From Pedobacter sp. D749 (lineage in GTDB: Bacteria > Bacteroidota > Bacteroidia > Sphingobacteriales > Sphingobacteriaceae): DNA of 64,000 nucleotides. Positions within the stretch are counted from its first letter, which is position 1. Every line of letters begins with the position of its first letter. Below, piece by piece: positions 6,531 through 45,683 of the stretch. The translations under genes were made by a program, and so were the position numbers. The notes under the pieces are model-generated. The model did not search any database. It was not told where the DNA came from and saw nothing but the letters and a program-made list of their open reading frames with translations. Location: positions 496,001 through 560,000 of the forward strand of contig NZ_CP079218.1 of assembly GCF_019317285.1 (NCBI RefSeq). The letters run 5' to 3'.

Positions 6531-8087
6531 ATGAAGAATCTTAAATTATTTACATTATCGCTCTTTTTTGTGCTAATTGCTACAGTTAGTGTTAATGCGC
6601 AAAAAGCTACAAATCCGATCATTTTTGCCGATGTACCCGATCTTTCGATGATCAGAGTGGGCAAAGTGTATTACATGAGTAGCACCACGATGCACATGAA
6701 TCCAGGTGTACCGATCATGAAATCAACCGATCTGGTAAACTGGAAAATTTTAAGTTACGCTTACGATACCCTCGGAAATGCTGATGAATTAACTTTATCT
6801 AATGGAAAGTGGGATTACGGGCGGGGATCCTGGGCAAGTAGTCTTCGTTTTCATAAAGGCATTTATTATGTAAGCACTTTTTCTGGCACTACTGGCAAAA
6901 CGTACATCTACAGTACAAAAGATATCGAAAAAGGCCCATGGAAGCTAACATCGTTTAAACCTTCACTGCACGACCATTCCCTGTTTTTTGAGGATGATGG
7001 AAAACCTTATATGGTATATGGGACTGGAAAAATTACCCTGGTGGAGTTAAAGGAAGATTTATCTGGAATAAAACCCAATACGCAACCTGTAACGATCATC
7101 GAAAACGCAAGCCTTCCGGCAGGTACGGGTGCCGGATTACCAGCAGAGGGTTCCCAACTGTTTAAAATTAATGGAAAATATTATCTTTTTAACATCACCT
7201 GGCCACGAAATGGAATGCGTACGGTTGTTGTACACCGTTCCGACAAACTTACAGGGCCATATGAAGGGCAGGTAGCGCTTAAAGATCAGGGTGTTGCACA
7301 AGGCGGTTTAATTAGTACACCAGAGGGGAAATGGTTTTCTTATCTTTTTAGAGATTTCGGATCCGTTGGACGCATTCCGTATTTAGTTCCGGTTAACTGG
7401 CAAGATGGATGGCCGATACTTGGCATAAACGGTAAAGTTCCGGAAACACTGGAACTTCCGGTTAGCAAAGGCTTAATTCCCGGAATTGTAGCATCAGATG
7501 AATTTAACCGCAAAAAGGGCGACCCCTTGCTTCCGCTGGTATGGCAATGGAACCACAATCCAGACCATGCATTTTGGTCAGTAACTAAACGCCCGGGATT
7601 TTTACGGATTACCACTTCAAGATTAGATACTAATATTCTTTTGGCTCGCAATACATTAACCCAGCGTACCATCGGACCGGTATCAACCGGAACCACTTTA
7701 ATTGATATCTCCGGTATGAAGGCTGGAGACCAGGCCGGACTGATGCTGCTTCAGCGCAAATTTGGTTGGGTTGGTGTAAAACACACTGGATCAAAGAAAA
7801 CGGTGGTTGCCGTAAGCGCCCAAAATGGTATTGTAATTGGTGAAGATGTTCCGGCCGGACAGCAAACCATTTATCTCAAAGCAAGATGTGATTTTGAGAA
7901 CCGAACAGATAAAGGTTATTTTTCTTACAGCTTTGATGGCAAAACCTGGAAACCTATAGGGGAGCCGCTGCAAATGTCGTATACGCTTCCCCATTTTATA
8001 GGGTACCGTTTTGGATTGTTTAATTACGCAACCGAAAATGCTGGTGGATATGTTGACTTTGATTATTTTAGAATTGAAGCAAAATAG
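6531..8087 (+). CDS. Glycoside hydrolase family 43 (beta-xylosidase / alpha-L-arabinofuranosidase-like)
   Basis: A 518-residue exported protein with a signal peptide ending near VNAQ (residue 24). A five-bladed propeller domain spans about residues 28-310 and a C-terminal beta-sandwich about 320-518, as in GH43 enzymes with a DUF1349-like end. The expected catalytic residues are visible: base D37 in DVPDLS, pKa-modulating D148 in HDHSLFF, and general acid E206 in PAEGSQLF. The STTMHM segment after the base resembles subfamily 12-type sequences, but the subfamily is not certain. It would remove xylose or arabinose side units in the periplasm. It follows the hybrid regulator and repeats and is probably part of the same xylan locus. 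The ATG at 6531 is directly followed by a clear signal peptide. Confidence 0.92.
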   Translation: MKNLKLFTLSLFFVLIATVSVNAQKATNPIIFADVPDLSMIRVGKVYYMSSTTMHMNPGVPIMKSTDLVNWKILSYAYDTLGNADELTLSNGKWDYGRGSWASSLRFHKGIYYVSTFSGTTGKTYIYSTKDIEKGPWKLTSFKPSLHDHSLFFEDDGKPYMVYGTGKITLVELKEDLSGIKPNTQPVTIIENASLPAGTGAGLPAEGSQLFKINGKYYLFNITWPRNGMRTVVVHRSDKLTGPYEGQVALKDQGVAQGGLISTPEGKWFSYLFRDFGSVGRIPYLVPVNWQDGWPILGINGKVPETLELPVSKGLIPGIVASDEFNRKKGDPLLPLVWQWNHNPDHAFWSVTKRPGFLRITTSRLDTNILLARNTLTQRTIGPVSTGTTLIDISGMKAGDQAGLMLLQRKFGWVGVKHTGSKKTVVAVSAQNGIVIGEDVPAGQQTIYLKARCDFENRTDKGYFSYSFDGKTWKPIGEPLQMSYTLPHFIGYRFGLFNYATENAGGYVDFDYFRIEAK

Positions 8088-16638: not shown

Positions 16639-19509
16639 ATGAGCAGAATTTTTACACAGATCTTCTATGTGTTAATATTTGTGTTTGCTGGTAATATGGC
16701 AGCACAGGCACAGAGTATTACGGTAAGCGGAACCGTAAAGGATAAGCAATCTAAAGAAGGACTAGCAGGAGTTAGTTTAACCATTAAAGGCCAATCGGGT
16801 GGTACCGCATCAACAGCCAATGGAAGTTTCAGCTTTAGTACAACGGCAAAAGTGCCCTTTACTTTAGTCGCATCCTATGTAGGATATGGTACAGTAGAAC
16901 AGCAGATTACCGGAAGCACTTCAGGTATTAATCTGGAAATAGAAACTGCAGTTGTATTAGGAGGAGATGTAGTTGTTTCTGCTTCGCGTACACCAGAGCG
17001 TATTTTAGAATCGCCTGTTTCCATCGAGCGGATGAGTGCTGCCACCATCAGGGAAATCGCTGCGCCATCGTTTTACGATGCTTTGAACAATATGAAAGGT
17101 GTAGAAAGCAGTGCGCAGAGTTTAACTTTCAAGTCGATTAACACGCGTGGTTTTAATTCTAATGGTAATACCCGCTTTAATCAATATATCGATGGAATGG
17201 ATAACCAGGCGCCGGGATTAAATTTCTCGGTAGGAAATATAGTAGGTATTACGGAACTCGATATAGATAATGTAGAGCTCTTACCAGGCGCTTCATCTGC
17301 CCTGTATGGTGCGGGTGGTATTAATGGAACTTTGTTAATGACTTCAAAAGATCCTTTTAAATATCCGGGAGCTAGTTTTCAATATAAAACAGGTGTAAAT
17401 CACGTTAATGACGATAATAGCAGTGTACAGCCATTTAATCAGCTGGATGTACGCATGGCAAAATCATGGAACAATAAATTCGGGGTAAAGGCTGCCTTTT
17501 CATTTTTGCAGGCCAAAGATTGGTACGGAAACAACTTCTCAAACTTTGACAGGGTATCAAGAACGGTAAAAAGTGGGGATCGGAGCGATCCGAATTATGA
17601 CGGGATCAATACTTATGGAGATGAGTTAAGCCAAAATATGAGAAATGTGGCGCAAAGTGTGCTGGCTTCAGGAACAGCAACTTTCGTTAAGAATTATGGA
17701 TTAGCAACCGGAGGAATGGTTCCAAGTCAAACCCAGATTAATTCATTTCTTTCTACAAATGCCCAAACCAGACCATTTTATGCAGGATTGAATACTCCGG
17801 GTTTAATACCGAATCAAAATATTACCAGAAATGGGTATCAGGAGGCTGATCTTGTAGATTATAACACCAAGTCATTGAAAGCATCCGGTGCATTATATTA
17901 CAATATCAGTAGCACCGTTCAGGCAACTTTACAGGCTAATTGGGGAACAGGGACTTCGGTTTACACTGGATCTGACCGTTATTCATTACGTAACTTCAAT
18001 ATTGGCCAGTACAAATTGGAGCTAAAGGGAGAGGATTTCATGTTACGTGGTTATACCACACAAGAACGTTCTGGCGATTCTTATATTTCTTCTATTTTGG
18101 GAAGTTATATTAACGAAAAATCTAAAATTTCTCAGGCTTGGTTCCCTGAATACGTAGGTAATTATGTTGGTGCAAGATCGCTCGGACAAACTGATGCACA
18201 AGCACAAATTACCGCAAGAACGGCTGCCAACTCTGCTTCAAGTGGCGGTAGTGCGTATTTTGCTCCTGGCTCACCACAATTTTTGCAGGCAAAAGATGAG
18301 ATTATGAATACGACGATCAGTGCATCCGATCCGAGTAAAGGTATTTACGGTGCTAAATTCGACGATAAATCTAACTTATATCATTATGAAGGATTATATA
18401 ATTTTACCAACCTTTTCAACAAAGTGGTAGAGTTTCAGGTAGGTGCATCTTATCGTTTATATGATTTAAATTCAGCCGGAACAATTTTTAACGATTTAAA
18501 TGAATCTATCGATATTAAGGAATACGGTGCATTTGGACAAATAGGTAAAAAGTTCTTTAACGATAAAGTGAAATTTACCTTTGCCGGTCGTTATGATAAA
18601 AGCCAGAATTTTGAAGGCCGGTTTACCCCAAGGGTAACCGGAGTGTTTACAGTTGCCAAAAACAACAACATCAGGGTTTCTTACCAAACAGGTTACCGTA
18701 ACCCAACTACACAGAACCAGTACATCGATCTGTCTGTTGGAGGTGGTTCGCAGAGATTAATTGGTGGCTTGCCAGAAATTATATTCAGCAAATACCATTT
18801 AGATACCAACAAACCCTATACTGATGTGAGTTACCGCGCATTCCTGGCTTCGGCAGCAACCACCGGAGCACCAAATCCGGCATTATTAAAGCAATATAAT
18901 TTTGATGCAAAAGGTGTTCGTCCAGAAAGTGTTCAGTCTTACGAGTTGGGTTACAAAGGTTTACTCTTACCTAATTTGTTGCTTGATGCATATGGTTATT
19001 ACAATATTTACAAAGATTTTATTACCGCAGTTGATGTATACCAGAATGTTGGAGGAAGTTTTGTGAAATTCGGCGTTCCGGTTAATGCAGAAGGTAAAGT
19101 AACTTCTTATGGTGCAGCTTTAGGTCTTGATTACCTTGTGGGTAAATGGAATGTAAGCGGTAACGTTTCTTACAACCAGATCGGAGATTTGCCGGTTAAC
19201 TACATTAACGATTTTAATACGCCTAAAATCCGTTATAACCTGGGATTGGGTAATAAAGAAATTATTAAAAACTTTGGTTTCAATGTTTCTTACCGTTGGC
19301 AAGATCAATTCTACTGGAATTCTTCTTTTGCCTCAGGTCAGGTGCCTGCATACAGCTCGCTTGATGCGCAGGTAAGTTTAAGAATCCCTTCAGTACAATC
19401 GGTAATTAAACTTGGTGGTTCTAACGTATTGAACAAATATTATTTTACTTCTTATGGTAACCCATCGGCAGGAGCAATCTACTACGTGGCCATTAGTTTT
19501 AATCCATAG
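16639..19509 (+). CDS. TonB-dependent receptor with carboxypeptidase-like regulatory domain
   Basis: A 956-residue outer-membrane protein with a signal peptide ending AQAQ (residue 25). A CarboxypepD_reg-like domain starts at ITVSGTVKD (about residues 26-110), followed by a plug with SINTRGFNSNGN and GASSALYGAGGINGTLLM, and then a barrel of about 22 strands. It ends in the aromatic-rich AISFNP, typical of outer-membrane barrels. No SusD partner follows, so it is not a classic SusCD pair. The TlpA-like gene downstream is on the other strand. The ligand is unknown. Confidence 0.93.
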   Translation: MSRIFTQIFYVLIFVFAGNMAAQAQSITVSGTVKDKQSKEGLAGVSLTIKGQSGGTASTANGSFSFSTTAKVPFTLVASYVGYGTVEQQITGSTSGINLEIETAVVLGGDVVVSASRTPERILESPVSIERMSAATIREIAAPSFYDALNNMKGVESSAQSLTFKSINTRGFNSNGNTRFNQYIDGMDNQAPGLNFSVGNIVGITELDIDNVELLPGASSALYGAGGINGTLLMTSKDPFKYPGASFQYKTGVNHVNDDNSSVQPFNQLDVRMAKSWNNKFGVKAAFSFLQAKDWYGNNFSNFDRVSRTVKSGDRSDPNYDGINTYGDELSQNMRNVAQSVLASGTATFVKNYGLATGGMVPSQTQINSFLSTNAQTRPFYAGLNTPGLIPNQNITRNGYQEADLVDYNTKSLKASGALYYNISSTVQATLQANWGTGTSVYTGSDRYSLRNFNIGQYKLELKGEDFMLRGYTTQERSGDSYISSILGSYINEKSKISQAWFPEYVGNYVGARSLGQTDAQAQITARTAANSASSGGSAYFAPGSPQFLQAKDEIMNTTISASDPSKGIYGAKFDDKSNLYHYEGLYNFTNLFNKVVEFQVGASYRLYDLNSAGTIFNDLNESIDIKEYGAFGQIGKKFFNDKVKFTFAGRYDKSQNFEGRFTPRVTGVFTVAKNNNIRVSYQTGYRNPTTQNQYIDLSVGGGSQRLIGGLPEIIFSKYHLDTNKPYTDVSYRAFLASAATTGAPNPALLKQYNFDAKGVRPESVQSYELGYKGLLLPNLLLDAYGYYNIYKDFITAVDVYQNVGGSFVKFGVPVNAEGKVTSYGAALGLDYLVGKWNVSGNVSYNQIGDLPVNYINDFNTPKIRYNLGLGNKEIIKNFGFNVSYRWQDQFYWNSSFASGQVPAYSSLDAQVSLRIPSVQSVIKLGGSNVLNKYYFTSYGNPSAGAIYYVAISFNP

Positions 19510-21209: not shown

Positions 21210-21447
21210 AATGTTTATTTATTTATGTTTAAATATATTTTGTGATTTACAATTTATCAAGTCCAGAATAATGATGCAAAAAAGCATGTCTGGATTGTAT
21301 AATGGAATAGCTTAGTGTGAAATTCACACTATTAAAACATCTTTTCAAAAAAAGCTACATCCCTTTTGTAAAATATTTGTATTATAGTACTTTCTTAAGC
21401 ACATCCCGGTTTAAGAGGTTATGAATTTAAAATTTGAATAAATAAGG
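21210..21447. other. AT-rich intergenic region before the GH31 gene
   Basis: No open frame is supported. TTTG at 21365-21368 with TACTTTCT 19 bases later is a two-mismatch match to the Bacteroidota promoter and could serve the GH31 gene. Confidence 0.3.
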
Positions 21448-33362: not shown

Positions 33363-33741
33363 TGTAATGGGTAAAAATGTCTCTCAGTTGATCTCAATTA
33401 TAACAGGTTAGTCGATCCGTGAGGGAAATATACATATGCTCACATATTACTATGTATTTTTTTACCGATTAATATGCAACATGGATCTGCGCATGCTAAA
33501 TACTGTATTTGTGGACGTTTAGGTTGCACTTATAAGCCACTCTGCTAAGGAAATTTTATTTGTTTATGTTTAGGGTACACGCTTCCCTAAAACCAAAACA
33601 GATTTATTGAAGAATTTTTCGTTTTTTTTCATTTAAATTCAAATCTTCATCAAATCTTAATCTTTCTGTCGTAATATTGTAGGCATAAGGGGTGAGAGCC
33701 TTATACCAACTTCATAAGTTGAGAGCGTTAATTTAGATAGG

Positions 33742-33769
33742 GGATGTAGCCAGTGGCTACATCCTTTTT
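33742..33769 (+). terminator. Strong hairpin with T tail and no coding gene before it
   Basis: A 10-bp perfect stem (GGATGTAGCC with GGCTACATCC), three-base loop, then five T's. Smaller hairpins precede it (CAACTT/AAGTTG at 33707-33721; AAGG/CCTT at 33687-33702). It could end a short noncoding RNA, but no clear promoter was found. Confidence 0.6.
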
Positions 33770-34023
33770 GCGTTATTAATTTTAGTAATCCAGATGGGAG
33801 GTAGCTTGGTGTTGACCCAACAAATGCTTCTGCTGAATCTTTCAATGCAAAGATTAAAGCTTTTAGATCCCAATTCCGAGGGGTGAAATGCATAAAGTTT
33901 TTCCTATATAGGCTAACTCAACTATATGCTTAAAAATAATTAGGGATTAAGTTTTGGTGTTGACCCTGTTTGATGAAATAAGAATTATGAATGGTTAAAA
34001 AAGAAATATTAATTCAACTCTCC
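33770..34023. other. Intergenic DNA with a 13-base direct repeat
   Basis: TTGGTGTTGACCC occurs at 33806-33818 and again at 33954-33966. A minus-strand open frame (33657-33893) crosses the hairpin and has no recognised family. It may be a mobile-element scar. Confidence 0.35.
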
Positions 34024-34026
34024 TTT

Positions 34027-34187
34027 AAATAAGAAAAGGGACAACTTATCCAAGCTTGTCCCTTTTTTCTAACCAAATATAAACCTGTTATGAGCCAGGC
34101 TTTGTCTTTAACTTTCTTTCTAAACCGGGGCTTATCCAGGAAGTGATTTATCTTTTTTATTGTTAACAAACATCGTTCCGTTTATTA
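34027..34187 (-). ncRNA. Candidate small RNA B, under a GTGTA-N5-TACAC operator
   Basis: The predicted leftward RNA of about 160 nt starts near 34187 after a TATATTTG box and ends at a strong hairpin: GGGACAA/TTGTCCC (34038-34044 with 34056-34062) followed by TTTTCTTATTT. No coding gene follows on that strand. A 13-codon open frame (ATG at 34173, MFVNNKKDKSLPG) lies near its 5' end. The 5' hairpin (CTGGATAAGCCCCGG and following GTTTAGAAAG) and the 15-base tail resemble candidate RNA A. Its promoter shares an operator with the glycolysis genes, so it may tune carbon metabolism (inference). A very short peptide gene is the alternative. Confidence 0.55.
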
Positions 34188-34192
34188 CTCTA

Positions 34193-34232
34193 CAAATATA
34201 GTAAAAAAAATGATAGTGTAAAAAATACACTA
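34193..34232 (-). promoter_or_regulatory. Promoter and operator of small RNA B
   Basis: A minus-strand -7 box TATATTTG lies at 34193-34200, with TTTT 19 bases upstream (34220-34223). A perfect palindrome TAGTGTA-AAAAA-TACACTA (34214-34232) covers the -33 region. The core GTGTA-N5-TACAC recurs at the pfkA/regulator gap and upstream of the second BadF kinase. Confidence 0.65.
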
Positions 34233-34546: not shown

Positions 34547-34580
34547 AAAAGGCAACATTAATTGAATAATGTTGCCTTTT
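34547..34580 (-). terminator. Terminator of the pfkA-kinase-gapA operon
   Basis: A 14-bp perfect stem (AAAAGGCAACATTA with its complement) and six-base loop; read leftward it runs into TTTTTTGTTTT. It lies 35 bases after the gapA stop. Confidence 0.92.
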
Positions 34581-34614: not shown

Positions 34615-36463
<1,849 letters not shown>

Positions 36464-36464
36464 A

Positions 36465-37451
36465 TTATATTGAAAGTACCTCTGTCATTTCCATTAAATC
36501 GGGCTCGAGTTTAAAAGAATGAGCAGTTAAAGCCTCTCTTATGCTGGTTAATTTTATTTCATTTCCTTTTAAACCGACCATTTGCTCCGTTTCGCCCGCA
36601 ATTAACGCATTTACTGCGGCAAAACCTAAACGACTGCCCAAAATTCTGTCAAAACTGCTTGGGCTACCACCACGTTGAAGGTGGCCAAGTATGGTTACTT
36701 TGGTGTCGTAATGATCAAAAGTTTCTTTTACCTTTTTAGCAATATCGTAAGCACCGCCTTGTTTATGGCCTTCTGCCACAATAACGATACTTGATGATTT
36801 TTTTGTTGCTGCACCTAAGGCCAGTTTATTAATCAATTCATTTACGCTGGTTTCCTTTTCAGGCAACAGAACAGCTTCGGCACCACTTGCAATTGAACTC
36901 CTGAGTGCAATACATCCAGAATCGCGTCCCATTACCTCTATAAAGAATAAACGGTCGTGCGCATCTGCTGTATCCCTGATTTTGTCAATTGCTTCGATTA
37001 CAGTGTTAATCGCTGTATCGTAACCTAAAGTAAAGTCAGATCCTACTAAATCGTTATCAATAGTTCCTGGTATACCGATCACTTTAACCCCAAAAGTTTC
37101 CGAAAAACGTTTAGCTCCGGTAAATGTTCCATCGCCACCGATGACCACTAATCCATCGATATCGTTTTTCTTTAAGTTATTGTATGCAATCTGCTGACCT
37201 TCGTCTGTTTTAAATTCTAAACAGCGTGCAGTTTTTAATATGGTGCCGCCCAGGTGTAAAATATTACTTACAGAACGGGCGTCCATTGGTTTTATGTTGT
37301 CGGTTATTAAACCCTGGTAACCTTGCATTACACCAAACATGTTAATGCCATGGTAAATTCCGGTACGAACAACAGCTCTGATTGCTGCATTCATTCCAGG
37401 GGCATCGCCTCCAGAAGTTAATACAGCTATATTTTTTATATTTGGCTCCAT
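36465..37451 (-). CDS. pfkA: ATP-dependent 6-phosphofructokinase
   Basis: 328 residues. TSGGDAPGMNAAIRAVVR binds ATP; GGDGTFTGA has Gly at the position that is Asp in PPi-dependent enzymes, which supports ATP use. PGTIDNDLVGSDFTLGYDTA holds the catalytic TIDND, and GHLQRGGSPSSFDR binds fructose-6-phosphate. It commits sugar to glycolysis. It is first in the operon with the BadF-like gene and gapA, and divergent from the Nudix-type regulator, with a shared operator between them. Confidence 0.97.
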   Translation of the reverse strand: MEPNIKNIAVLTSGGDAPGMNAAIRAVVRTGIYHGINMFGVMQGYQGLITDNIKPMDARSVSNILHLGGTILKTARCLEFKTDEGQQIAYNNLKKNDIDGLVVIGGDGTFTGAKRFSETFGVKVIGIPGTIDNDLVGSDFTLGYDTAINTVIEAIDKIRDTADAHDRLFFIEVMGRDSGCIALRSSIASGAEAVLLPEKETSVNELINKLALGAATKKSSSIVIVAEGHKQGGAYDIAKKVKETFDHYDTKVTILGHLQRGGSPSSFDRILGSRLGFAAVNALIAGETEQMVGLKGNEIKLTSIREALTAHSFKLEPDLMEMTEVLSI

Positions 37452-37461
37452 CTTTATAATA

Positions 37462-37488
37462 CGAATATAGTGTGTATTTTTTACACTA
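37462..37488 (-). promoter_or_regulatory. pfkA promoter with GTGTA-N5-TACAC operator
   Basis: The core GTGTA-TTTTT-TACAC lies at 37472-37486, two bases behind a -7-like box TATATTCG (37462-37469, minus strand, one mismatch). It lies in the 111-base gap between pfkA and the divergent regulator gene, so it could control both. Confidence 0.68.
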
Positions 37489-37562: not shown

Positions 37563-38252
37563 TTGGAACAAATTTTACCTCACTTAGATTCTGTATTCTC
37601 AATAGATTGCGTTTTGTTTGGATTTGATGGTAAGGAATTAAAAATCCTGCTAATTGAAAGGAATGAAGAGCCATTTAAAGATTGGTGGGCACTGCCCGGT
37701 AATATTGTTGGCCCTGATGAAAGTTTAGATCAATCAGCCTCCCGGATTTTGTACGAGCTTACCGGTTTGCGCGGTATTTACATGGAGCAGTACTATGCTT
37801 TTGGCGATCCGCACAGGCACCCACAAGGTAGGGTAATTACTTTGGCATACTATGCTTTGATTCGTTTGGGTGGAGATAAAGAATTACGCCCGATCAGTAC
37901 TTATGCCAAACGGGCAAATTGGCTGCCAATAACCGATCTGCCTAAACTGGCTTTCGATCACCAGAAAATTTACGATAAAGGATTGGAAAAAATAAAACGA
38001 CGGATTAAACACCAGCCTATTGCTTTCGAACTCTTGCCAGAGAAATTTACCTTAACACAATTGCAGCATGTGTATGAGCTGGTTTTGGGTAAAAAACTCG
38101 ATAAAAGAAACTTTAGAAAGAAGATTGTAAGTTTTGGGGTATTGAAAGAACTCGACGAAAAACAAAAAGGTGTGTCGTACCGTGCAGCTACTTTGTACCG
38201 CTTTGATAAGCGTAAATACGCGAAACTTTTTGGTAAGGAGATTTCTTTCTAG
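37563..38252 (+). CDS. Nudix-related transcriptional regulator (NrtR/AraR-like)
   Basis: 229 residues from a TTG start; no early ATG exists. The N-terminal Nudix fold (about residues 10-140) has FKDWWALPGNIVGPDESLDQ and ASRILYELTGL. The Nudix box is degenerate: the REUxEE positions read RILYEL, so hydrolase activity is unlikely. The C-terminal winged helix (about 155-220) has FTLTQLQHVYELVLGK and NFRKKIVSFGVL. This design is known from NrtR and Bacteroides AraR. It is divergent from pfkA, and the GTGTA-N5-TACAC palindrome between them is its likely operator. Its effector is probably a sugar phosphate or nucleotide sugar (inference). Confidence 0.9.
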   Translation: MEQILPHLDSVFSIDCVLFGFDGKELKILLIERNEEPFKDWWALPGNIVGPDESLDQSASRILYELTGLRGIYMEQYYAFGDPHRHPQGRVITLAYYALIRLGGDKELRPISTYAKRANWLPITDLPKLAFDHQKIYDKGLEKIKRRIKHQPIAFELLPEKFTLTQLQHVYELVLGKKLDKRNFRKKIVSFGVLKELDEKQKGVSYRAATLYRFDKRKYAKLFGKEISF

Positions 38253-38431: not shown

Positions 38432-39292
38432 CTAAGCCTTAGGCGCTAACTCCAGGTGGTAATGAACCAGGTCATCTATAGGAGAGCGGATAATTTTACC
38501 CACACCCATTTCGTAACGGTCAGCTACAATACTTAAAATATCACGGAAACTATAACCAACAGAACCCACACAGTTTAATTTGTGGTCTTTGTAGTTAGGA
38601 TAGTGGATGACCAAAGCTTCGAAAAATGCAGTAAAAGCATAATCAATGGTAGCAAAGGCATAATCCTCATAGTTATCTTTAAAATCGTATAAGAATTTAC
38701 TAAAACTTGCGCAGAAACGGTTTGGCAATGGCTTATTGTAAATGTTATCGAAAATATCTTCGTTGGTTAAGGCATAGTTATCGTAAAAAGCTTCACGTAA
38801 GCCTTTCGGCATGTAACCTTTCATGTAATCGCTCAAAATGCGTTTACCGATGTACGAACCACTACCTTCATCACCCAGGAAATAACCTAATGAATCAATG
38901 TTCATGGTAATTTCAGATCCATCGTAAAGACATGAGTTGGTACCTGTACCTAAGATAGCAGCAAATCCTGGCTCGTTTCCAAGAAGTGCCCTGGAAGAGG
39001 CAAGTAAATCATGACCTACAAAAATTGTTGCATTGATAAAGATTTGTTGCATGGCATCGGCCACAATCTTAACATTTGCAGGTGTAGAACAGCCGGCGCC
39101 GTAGTAATAAACTGCTGTTAATTTCTCTCTTTCCAAGTGGTCTGGAAGAGTCTCATTCAAAGACTTTACAATGTACTCTCCTTTGGAAAAATATGGATTG
39201 TAACCTTCGGTGTTAAAGTAAATTTTTCTGCCGGCCTCGTTAATCAAACACCAATTTGTTTTGGTAGATCCGCCGTCTGCAATTACTATCAT
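38432..39292 (-). CDS. BadF/BadG-type kinase (N-acetylglucosamine-kinase-like)
   Basis: 286 residues from the ATG at 39292; an upstream in-frame GTG (39316) is less likely because the phosphate loop ADGGSTKTNWCLI starts the family at once. The further motifs VYYYGAGCSTPANV, ILGTGTNSCLYDG and LGDEGSGSYIGKR are complete. It probably phosphorylates an amino sugar or a similar hexose. It is a paralogue of the degenerate protein encoded between pfkA and gapA. A GTGTA-N5-TACAC site lies about 105 bases upstream. Confidence 0.9.
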   Translation of the reverse strand: MIVIADGGSTKTNWCLINEAGRKIYFNTEGYNPYFSKGEYIVKSLNETLPDHLEREKLTAVYYYGAGCSTPANVKIVADAMQQIFINATIFVGHDLLASSRALLGNEPGFAAILGTGTNSCLYDGSEITMNIDSLGYFLGDEGSGSYIGKRILSDYMKGYMPKGLREAFYDNYALTNEDIFDNIYNKPLPNRFCASFSKFLYDFKDNYEDYAFATIDYAFTAFFEALVIHYPNYKDHKLNCVGSVGYSFRDILSIVADRYEMGVGKIIRSPIDDLVHYHLELAPKA

Positions 39293-39397
39293 TTTATTTA
39301 TTTTTGGTTTTAGCACGATAAAAGTATAAAAAGTCTTATATTTTGTATCCTTTTTTTTAATAATTTTTTAACAATTTGTTATTGTCGGAAATTAAGT

Positions 39398-39412
39398 GTG
39401 TAAAAAATACAC
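39398..39412. promoter_or_regulatory. Third GTGTA-N5-TACAC operator
   Basis: GTGTA-AAAAA-TACAC lies in the gap between the divergent BadF kinase (start 39292, minus) and threonine aldolase (start 39512, plus). It is the same core as at 34216-34230 and 37472-37486. Which of the two genes it controls is not clear; the kinase fits the sugar theme. Confidence 0.6.
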
Positions 39413-39511
39413 TATATAGGTTCTTTAATCACCGAAAAACCTTAAAATTATACCAGAAAAGGCATTGGTCTTTTTTTTAACGTCAAAAATATTTTACAAC
39501 AAAATAGCAAA

Positions 39512-43034: not shown

Positions 43035-45683
43035 ATGAACAGAATTTCCCGCATGTTAAGCGCAATGTTTACCATTGCCTTATTATTTTTATTTACAGAG
43101 AATGCTTCAGCTCAAAAAATCTCCTTAAAAGATTTAACTGTTGAGCATTTGGTAAATCCTTTTAGTGTTGATAACCCAAAGCCCAGATTTAGCTGGAAAA
43201 TTATTTCAACAGCAAAAAATACCAGGCAGAAAAACTACGAAATCAGGCTGGGTACCTCGCCAAAAATTGACAAAGTTTTATGGAAAACAACTATAAATAA
43301 TGATCAGTCGGTTCTGGTGGCTTACGATGGTCCCCAATTATCATCCAAAACCAAATATTACTGGCAGGTTAGGGTAAAAGATAATCATGGAAATACTTCC
43401 TCTTGGTCACCGGTGCAATATTTTCAAACGGGTTTAAAGCCTGAAGATTGGAATGCGAAATGGATCACAGTAGAAGGTAAAGATACTTCACTCGCTAGTC
43501 CACTGTTTAGAAAAGAATTTAACCTCAAAAAAGAAGTAAAATCTGCCATGGCTTACATTACTGCTAAAGGTTTGTATGAGGCCAATATTAACGGCGGGCG
43601 TGTTAGTGATGCTTATTTTGCTCCAGGATGGACAAGTTATAAAGATCATATTCAGTACCAGGTTTACGATGTTAAGCAATCGCTAAAGAAAGGCGCCAAT
43701 GTAATTGGCGTTTCACTAGGCGATGGCTGGTACAAGGGGCGTATCGGATTTAGTAATCAAAAACAATTTTATGGCGATACCAGGGCATTGTTAATGCAAT
43801 TGGAAGTGGAATATACCGACGGAAGCAAAGAAACCATTGTAACGGATAATAGCTGGAAAACAGGTTATGGGCCGATAGTGGCTTCCAATATTTATGATGG
43901 AGAAACCTACGATGCCCGGTTAGAACTCAATGGCTGGAATAATATTGGTTTTAAAGAAAATACTACCTGGAAACCAGTGCAAGAACTGGCTATGGGGGCT
44001 GAGAAATTGATTGGAATGAGCGGGCCGCCGGTAACCAAACATGAAGAATTTAAAGCTTTAAAAATATTTAAAACGCCTTTAGGCGAAACGGTAGTCGATT
44101 TCGGACAGAACCTGGTAGGCTGGGTAATGTTAAAAGCCAAAGGTGCAGCAGGTACAAAAATTACCATTAGCCATGCTGAAGTATTAACCAGAGAAGGGAA
44201 TTTTTATACCACCAACCTCCGTACAGCGAAGCAACAGAACAACTATATATTAAAAGAGGAAACCGAGCAGGTATTCGAACCACATTTTTCTTTTCAGGGC
44301 TTTAGGTACGTCAAAATAGATGGCTACCATGGTGAGCTGAAGTTGGAAAACCTTACCGCTGTAGCTGTTTATTCGGACATGAAAACCAGTGGGAAATTCA
44401 GCACTTCCAATCCTTTACTAAATCAATTGCAGCATAATATTAGCTGGGGACAGAAAGGGAATTTTGTTGATGTGCCAACAGATTGTCCTCAAAGAGATGA
44501 ACGTTTAGGCTGGACAGGGGATGCGCAGGCATTTGCCTCAACTGCGGCATATAATATGGATGTATCGGGCTTTTTTACTAAATGGCTAAAAGATGTTGCT
44601 GCAGATCAGCTTCCAAATGGTAGTGTTCCATTTGTAATTCCAAATGTGCTGAACCAAAATGATGCAGGTTCTGCAGGCTGGGCTGATGTGGCTACCATTG
44701 TTCCCTGGGATATATATGTATCATATGGAGATAAAGGGATTTTGGAAAAGCAATATGAAAGCATGAAAAAGTGGGTTGATTATATCTCATCAGTAGCAAA
44801 AAACAACCTTTGGAATACGGGTTTCCACTTTGGCGATTGGTTGTTTTACCGGCCAAATGATGATAATGATGGGCGTGCCGCAGTGACGGATAAATATATG
44901 ATTGCGCAAACATTTTACGCACACTCAACCCAGTTGCTGATAAATGCGGCAAAGGTATTGGGTAAAACAGACGACGTAACGAAATACAATGCGCTGTTAG
45001 AACAGATTAAAACAGCTTACATCAAAGAGAATATGACACCTAGTGGCAAATTGATCTCTAATACGCAAACGGCATACGTACTGGCTTTACAGTTTGATAT
45101 GCTACCTGAAAACTTACGTCCACAGGCCGCACAAAGACTGGTAGATAATGTGAGGGATTACGGGAACCACCTGACTACGGGTTTTTTGGGTACACCATAC
45201 CTTTGTCATGTATTAAGCCGTTTTGGGCACGAAGATGTTGCTTACGATCTGTTGTTGCAGGAAAGTTACCCTTCATGGTTATATCCTGTTAAAATGGGAG
45301 CAACCACCATTTGGGAGCGCTGGGATGGCATTAAACAGGATGGCTCTTTTCAAACAGCAGATATGAATTCTTTTAACCACTACGCTTATGGCGCCATTGG
45401 CGATTGGATGTATAAAAATATTGCCGGTATTAATCCTGTATCAGCGCAACCTGGTTACAAAAACATTTTAATTGCACCAAGACCAGGTGGGAAATTAACC
45501 AATGCCTCGGCAGAACTGGAAACGGTTTATGGTACGGTTAAATCAGCATGGACCATTGCAGATGGCATTTTTAAGCTGGATGTAACTGTGCCAGCCAATG
45601 CAAGTGCTACCGTAGTATTGCCAAAAAACGATAAAAAAGAAGAAATAGGATCAGGTAGCTATCATTTTGAATGCAAATATTAA
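43035..45683 (+). CDS. Alpha-L-rhamnosidase, GH78
   Basis: 882 residues with a signal peptide ending ASAQ (residue 27). A fibronectin-like N-domain (about residues 30-135, ENPFSV-like start PFSVDNPKPRFSW) is followed by the Bac_rhamnosid_N lectin-like domain. The (alpha/alpha)6 barrel contains DCPQRDERLGWTGDAQ, where E489 is the expected general acid, and ATTIWERWDG, with the expected base. It would release terminal L-rhamnose from plant polysaccharides or glycosides in the periplasm. It stands alone with a strong palindrome before its start. Confidence 0.95.
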   Translation: MNRISRMLSAMFTIALLFLFTENASAQKISLKDLTVEHLVNPFSVDNPKPRFSWKIISTAKNTRQKNYEIRLGTSPKIDKVLWKTTINNDQSVLVAYDGPQLSSKTKYYWQVRVKDNHGNTSSWSPVQYFQTGLKPEDWNAKWITVEGKDTSLASPLFRKEFNLKKEVKSAMAYITAKGLYEANINGGRVSDAYFAPGWTSYKDHIQYQVYDVKQSLKKGANVIGVSLGDGWYKGRIGFSNQKQFYGDTRALLMQLEVEYTDGSKETIVTDNSWKTGYGPIVASNIYDGETYDARLELNGWNNIGFKENTTWKPVQELAMGAEKLIGMSGPPVTKHEEFKALKIFKTPLGETVVDFGQNLVGWVMLKAKGAAGTKITISHAEVLTREGNFYTTNLRTAKQQNNYILKEETEQVFEPHFSFQGFRYVKIDGYHGELKLENLTAVAVYSDMKTSGKFSTSNPLLNQLQHNISWGQKGNFVDVPTDCPQRDERLGWTGDAQAFASTAAYNMDVSGFFTKWLKDVAADQLPNGSVPFVIPNVLNQNDAGSAGWADVATIVPWDIYVSYGDKGILEKQYESMKKWVDYISSVAKNNLWNTGFHFGDWLFYRPNDDNDGRAAVTDKYMIAQTFYAHSTQLLINAAKVLGKTDDVTKYNALLEQIKTAYIKENMTPSGKLISNTQTAYVLALQFDMLPENLRPQAAQRLVDNVRDYGNHLTTGFLGTPYLCHVLSRFGHEDVAYDLLLQESYPSWLYPVKMGATTIWERWDGIKQDGSFQTADMNSFNHYAYGAIGDWMYKNIAGINPVSAQPGYKNILIAPRPGGKLTNASAELETVYGTVKSAWTIADGIFKLDVTVPANASATVVLPKNDKKEEIGSGSYHFECKY

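Follow-up and report, generated by a model that had tools for sequence, protein, structure and literature searches.

A multi-copy small RNA of Pedobacter, preceded by a glycolysis-type operator and predicted to pair with start regions of SusC-type transporter and glycoside hydrolase genes

The window analyzed here, a 64-kb stretch of the Pedobacter sp. D749 genome, carries a BadF/NagK-like sugar kinase gene, pfkA, a kinase-like gene and gap on its minus strand, followed by a transcription unit that an earlier note had proposed to be a regulatory RNA (Table 1). A perfect operator, a TATATTTG box, a predicted transcript of about 158 nt and a terminator, the elements described in that note, were found on the minus strand, the terminator being a strong stem-loop with a T-rich tail. 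The operator had also been said to overlap the box, which was not the case; it ends 13 nt upstream of the box and spans the -33 position. Neither the window nor the 5.84-Mb genome has a second perfect operator. When up to 3 mismatches were allowed, 7 operator-like sites were found in the window, where 2.6 were expected and 3 of 100 shuffles reached 7.

Table 1. Features of the small RNA locus, its neighborhood and predicted targets within the window.
Feature	Coordinates	Strand	Remarks
Predicted target, GH43 glycosidase	6531..8084	+	Duplex -15.5 kcal/mol; Pfam
Predicted target, SusC-type receptor (~956 aa)	16639..19506	+	TAACCAAATT at -19; duplex -11.9 kcal/mol; end computed from length
Small RNA, ~158 nt	34030..34188	-	5' end predicted from box, 3' end from terminator; sequence, fold, full-length conservation
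Terminator stem with bulged G and GGAU loop, then T-rich tract	34036..34064	-	Covariation
Predicted seed UUUAUAUUUGGUUAG, mostly single-stranded	34069..34083	-	Invariant in 22-sequence alignment
Hairpin 1, AAGCCUGGCUCAUAACAGGUUU	34081..34102	-	CC/GG pairs invariant
13-codon frame MFVNNKKDKSLPG	34132..34173	-	Judged a non-gene; length varies or frame missing across copies
TATATTTG box (TAnnTTTG), Bacteroidota-type -7 promoter box	34193..34200	-	
Operator TAGTGTA-TTTTT-TACACTA (TAGTGTATTTTTTACACTA)	34214..34232	-	Perfect palindrome; covers -33 position of small RNA promoter
Terminator-like hairpin between gap and small RNA	34547..34580	-	
gap (GAPDH)	34615..35613	-	Same strand as small RNA, upstream of it
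Kinase-like gene between pfkA and gap	35621-36463	-	Start resembles the BadF/NagK-like kinase
pfkA, 6-phosphofructokinase	36465..37451	-	
pfkA operator	37470..37488	-	2 mismatches
Nudix and winged-helix regulator, NrtR/AraR type	37563..38252	+	Divergent from pfkA; PF21906 9e-29, PF19368 8e-16, PF00293
BadF/NagK-like sugar kinase	38432..39316	-	Matches below curated cut-offs
Operator upstream of sugar kinase	39396..39414	-	2 mismatches
Predicted target, alpha-L-rhamnosidase	43035..45680	+	Duplex -17.8 kcal/mol at start region; Pfam

The operator core that had been reported at pfkA and the sugar kinase was confirmed at both genes. The protein encoded divergently from pfkA has the Nudix domain and NrtR-type winged helix of an NrtR/AraR regulator, and from its adjacency and the placement of the operators it presumably binds the TAGTGTA-N5-TACACTA sequence. 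BtAraR, an NrtR-family regulator of L-arabinose use with the same Nudix and winged-helix parts, has a semi-palindromic operator and exerts a repression that is released by ligand; its regulon consists of arabinose genes, whereas the Pedobacter operator-like sites mark central carbon genes and the sRNA (PMC4666351). A scan of the kinase-like gene between pfkA and gap against Pfam and NCBIfam gave no match. The products at the first 15 listed operator-like sites of the genome were assigned by reading the encoded proteins, and these sites included, besides pfkA and the sugar kinase, fbp, pyruvate kinase (pyk), pckA and glutamate synthase (gltB). The genome holds 41 sites with no more than 2 mismatches against 33 for a control pattern, a small excess that makes single weak sites uncertain. 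Since the operator family marks glycolytic (pfkA, pyk) and gluconeogenic (fbp, pckA) genes alike, the sign of control cannot be read from any one site. Another palindrome in the window, TAGTGTGAAATTCACACTA at 21313-21331, has 2 mismatches to the operator and lies 126 nt before a gene of 461+ aa.

Full-length orthologs of the unit, with 81-92% identity, were found in about 16 of 35 other genomes of the genus, and most of the remaining ones carry further copies of its last 90 nt. Because the full-length orthologs are conserved, a chance origin of the unit is excluded. An alignment of 22 copies showed a CC..GG hairpin, the invariant stretch UUUAUAUUUGGUUAG and the terminator. Within the terminator, two-sided changes occur in 10 of 12 pairs, 98.5% of cells are paired, and the covariation score is 0.619 compared with 0.251 after shuffling (0 of 500 shuffles). 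Folding of the single sequence is weak (z -1.75), so the structure rests on covariation. A covariance model matched 116 of 119 Pedobacter genomes, including 109 of 109 of good quality, with 1-5 copies each. Across 395 genomes of the class, the RNA was confined to Pedobacter apart from weak matches in a single sister genus of the same family, and when named genomes were scanned for the exact core, nearly all matches came from Pedobacter. The version in the sister genus is short and has the operator 33 nt before the core, a variant seed, UUUAUAAUUGGUUAG, and a different terminator. Searches of Rfam at gathering and permissive thresholds returned no credible match, the best weak hits (gltS, plastid psbA 3'UTR and STnc250) being far below gathering scores, and our literature search found no published work on Pedobacter sRNAs. 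As judged from these comparisons, the unit is a genuine small RNA gene of a new family.

We next consider the settings of the copies. When 162 distinct core copies were fetched and scored for the operator with at most 1 mismatch, 99 had the operator, 24 lay directly after the gap stop codon, 36 lay elsewhere and 3 were at contig edges. The gap gene is upstream on the same strand in 62 of the 99 operator copies, and nearly all stand-alone copies near gap, as well as many others, keep the operator in front. The distance from the operator end to TAnnTTTG is 12-14 nt in 83 of the 99, and in 17 copies the operator contains the canonical -33 element, TTTG, spaced exactly 19-20 nt ahead of the box. 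The position of TTTG within the operator and the near-constant spacing argue for a repressor arrangement. Other Pedobacter gap genes have the sRNA core 14 nt after their stop codon, and the 24 copies in this setting share their terminator with the upstream mRNA, as 3' UTR-derived sRNAs do. The D749 window differs, as gap there has its own terminator-like hairpin and the core is not the gap 3' end. Thus, by this census, the family is multi-copy and also present as the 3' end of gap mRNA, which extends the reading of the earlier note, and its regulation is not uniform, since about 36 of the 162 copies have neither operator nor gap. Some copies without the operator lie 3' of unrelated genes, giving the impression that a seed-plus-terminator module has moved to other transcripts. 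Two operator-type copies stand in tandem within 500 bp.

Target prediction had been named in the earlier note as a check of its proposal. The seed complement CTAACCAAATATAAA was listed genome-wide with up to 2 mismatches, and many of the matches precede a start codon by 10-37 nt. The TIGR04056 profile served to locate SusC genes, the best 56 matches per genome being kept, and only their coordinates were used in the comparison with the listed sites. The results showed that 11 of 96 sites in this genome occur on the sense strand and precede one of the best 56 SusC matches by no more than 650 nt, compared with 0.30 expected, as do 16 of 85 sites in a second Pedobacter genome (0.20 expected). The opposite strand, which served as a control of the same base content, gave 1 SusC-upstream site in each of the two genomes. 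A genome of another family that lacks the RNA had 8 seed-complement sites in total, fewer than its control pattern. For the variant seed of the sister genus, 1 of 41 sites lies at SusC with 0.07 expected, a small number.

With up to 1 mismatch, CTAACCAAATATA was found 10 times in 1435 leaders from fetched blocks versus 0.5 for shuffled seeds (0 of 500), a count biased by the choice of own-genome blocks A, B and C, which were picked because they contained matches. The blind blocks D and E alone gave 2 versus 0.12 (3 of 500 shuffles), in agreement with the full set but small. The same test gave 0 of 366 leaders in a genus without the RNA, and in a relative without the sRNA, TAACCAA was mildly but not significantly over-represented in leaders. 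Duplexes of -14 kcal/mol or lower were reached by 15 leaders versus 4.8 for shuffled seeds (0 of 60). Duplex energies of 25 SusC leaders averaged -10.78, versus -7.03 +/- 0.74 for 300 shuffled seeds (0 of 300), and the signal was still 0 of 300 after the six genes that built the profile had been dropped. It is mainly confined to -60..+15, neighboring 75-nt windows being much weaker or null. When the sRNA was scanned against the SusC leaders, the sole strong signal was a 20-nt window with the invariant core (z -4.2). Conservation and target complementarity both point to this core, and the same 15 nt were therefore picked independently. Scans of the top 20 predicted targets identified 6 SusC-type receptors and 8 polysaccharide-degrading enzymes (a rhamnosidase, GH10 twice, GH2, GH43, GH5, GH3 and a pectate-lyase-like protein), and 20 random genes scanned likewise included none of either type. 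The best predicted targets are mostly SusC receptors and glycoside hydrolases, paired at about -10 to -37 relative to the start codon. Two SusC-type genes, at genome positions 3869153 and 5687741, have an operator-like site upstream, and the former is also a predicted sRNA target (-12.6 kcal/mol), a possible feed-forward arrangement.

The unit has the features of a trans-acting sRNA, i.e., a promoter and a terminator of its own, no reading frame that is conserved across copies, and a conserved unpaired seed that is complementary to target start regions above chance. We consider it probable (roughly three chances in four) that it is such an sRNA, freed together with the glycolytic genes by the Nudix repressor, and that it lowers the translation of glycan-uptake genes. 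The gene, its conservation and structure, the operator, and the target complementarity together with its location can be read from the sequences and their comparison; for the remainder, we infer that the Nudix protein binds the operator and represses rather than activates, that it responds to a ligand and that pairing lowers translation. The Nudix/winged-helix repressor, bound to the operator over the -33 element, would block the sRNA along with glycolytic genes until a sugar-derived ligand binds the repressor and releases both. The released sRNA would expose UUUAUAUUUGGUUAG between the small hairpin and the terminator, and this stretch would pair with CUAACCAAAUAUAAA-like sites that precede the start codons of SusC-type transporter and glycoside hydrolase genes by about 10-37 nt, reducing the translation of these genes. 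The outcome would be carbon-catabolite repression of polysaccharide utilization. In part of the genus, the core at the 3' end of gap mRNA may provide a second route to the sRNA when glycolysis is expressed. With only moderate confidence, we extend this to a genus-wide multi-copy sRNA, also carried in the GAPDH mRNA 3' end, that would act for a Cra-like Nudix regulator at the post-transcriptional level and catabolite-repress many polysaccharide-utilization loci simultaneously.

Control might also run in the opposite direction, the Nudix protein activating the sRNA or freeing it when sugar is scarce, so that the RNA would act on the same targets during starvation. The presence of the operator family at the gluconeogenic fbp and pckA genes is consistent with this, as is the reported repression of SusC-like transporters by FopS when substrates are limited (PMC11697453). 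However, an operator that sits on the -33 element, with TTTG inside it in 17 copies, has a repressor layout, and an RNA that is also the tail of gap mRNA is expected to track glycolytic expression. We thus regard opposite control as rather unlikely.

It is improbable that the core is a mere terminator or an mRNA-stabilizing 3' module that has spread between transcripts, with a cis role for the stretch, e.g., in RNA-protein binding, and an incidental match to SusC. Such a module would fit the occurrence of the core after gap and several unrelated genes and the terminator being the best covarying part, but termination calls for no invariant unpaired stretch of 15 nt, the complement of this stretch clusters at the start regions of SusC genes in both species compared, with the signal peaking on the stretch itself, and stand-alone copies are equipped with a promoter and an operator. 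The sign of the effect does not follow from pairing by itself, and the RNA could instead activate or stabilize the mRNAs with whose leaders it pairs; this appears quite improbable for sites about 10-37 nt before the start codon, where pairing of FopS blocks susC translation (PMC11697453). The 13-codon frame noted earlier is present and has similar 12-13 codon counterparts in several close orthologs (MFITIKKDKSFS etc.), but as a conserved protein it did not hold up, ranging from 4 to 28 codons and missing in some orthologs and in paralogs while the RNA core is invariant, so that a unit encoding a small protein, from this frame or a longer one read from an upstream promoter and possibly with a dual function, is very improbable.

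An sRNA of the proposed kind has parallels elsewhere. In enterobacteria, Spot 42 and SgrS are sRNAs that respond to sugar status and limit the use of other carbon sources; Spot 42 is controlled by CRP and SgrS by SgrR, and both are Hfq-dependent. The Pedobacter RNA would share with them the tie to sugar status and the limiting of other carbon sources; no sequence relation was detected (no Rfam match). The conserved core, the kept operator and the complementarity to SusC and glycoside hydrolase start regions support, in outline, the earlier suggestion of a regulatory RNA in a sugar regulon in the manner of Spot 42, and do so more strongly than the bare sequence could. The accompanying remark that no such RNA was known from this group has to be corrected, as Bacteroides thetaiotaomicron has functional parallels in GibS (PMC7366714) and FopS (PMC11697453).

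FopS is a multi-copy family with a single-stranded seed upstream of a Rho-independent terminator, which pairs near the start codon of SusC-like genes and represses their translation; it has canonical promoters, for which no operator is named, and a link between its expression and bile stress is described (PMC11697453). The Pedobacter RNA is likewise multi-copy, with a single-stranded seed before the terminator and predicted targets in SusC-type start regions, and differs from FopS by the glycolysis operator over its promoter, a seed beside the terminator behind a conserved hairpin, and the gap 3' UTR copies. A search of 4227 Rfam models, which may or may not include the reportedly deposited FopS, gave no gathering-score match, and FopS was absent from the hits up to E = 5. 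GibS is a sugar-responsive sRNA of about 145 nt that pairs at the starts of carbohydrate-metabolism mRNAs and for which a link to catabolite repression was suggested; it differs in having two 5' seeds, other targets, a non-canonical promoter motif and no known regulator (PMC7366714). In the passages searched on FopS (PMC11697453) and GibS (PMC7366714), neither a glycolytic regulator over the sRNA promoter nor a gap 3' UTR copy was found. The Pedobacter RNA most likely plays a Spot 42-like role that is executed like FopS, and its sequence features place it in a new sRNA family of a known kind with unusual regulatory wiring.

How Bacteroidota prefer simple sugars over glycans is only partly understood, and this locus offers a testable sugar-to-glycan switch in a culturable soil genus, with a defined sRNA, a defined operator, a candidate regulator close by and a limited set of predicted targets. 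It suggests that silencing of SusC genes by sRNAs reaches beyond gut Bacteroides, and that one seed RNA may be encoded in two ways, behind a regulated promoter of its own and at the tail end of a glycolytic mRNA. If the proposed mechanism is true, Bacteroidota would possess a counterpart of Cra and Spot 42 in which the regulation is direct.

Finally, several minor features surround the unit. A second TATATTTG-type box at 34322-34315 (minus strand), upstream of the operator, is retained in most orthologs and is followed by a short frame, MKKEQEIKNDKKNT; a longer transcript through the operator could start there. A longer in-frame ORF, which would start at an ATG further upstream and cross the operator, was assessed by eye and rejected because orthologs differ by indels in the A-rich stretch. 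In orthologs and paralogs, ATGACAAAA or TGTCAT(A) elements recur about 15-45 nt upstream of the operator (about 34262-34250, minus strand, in the window) and are possibly the site of a second regulator. On the plus strand, a gene-free stretch at about 33640-33775 ends in a terminator-like repeat, GGATGTAGCCAGTGGCTACATCC, followed by T, and may represent a second small RNA.
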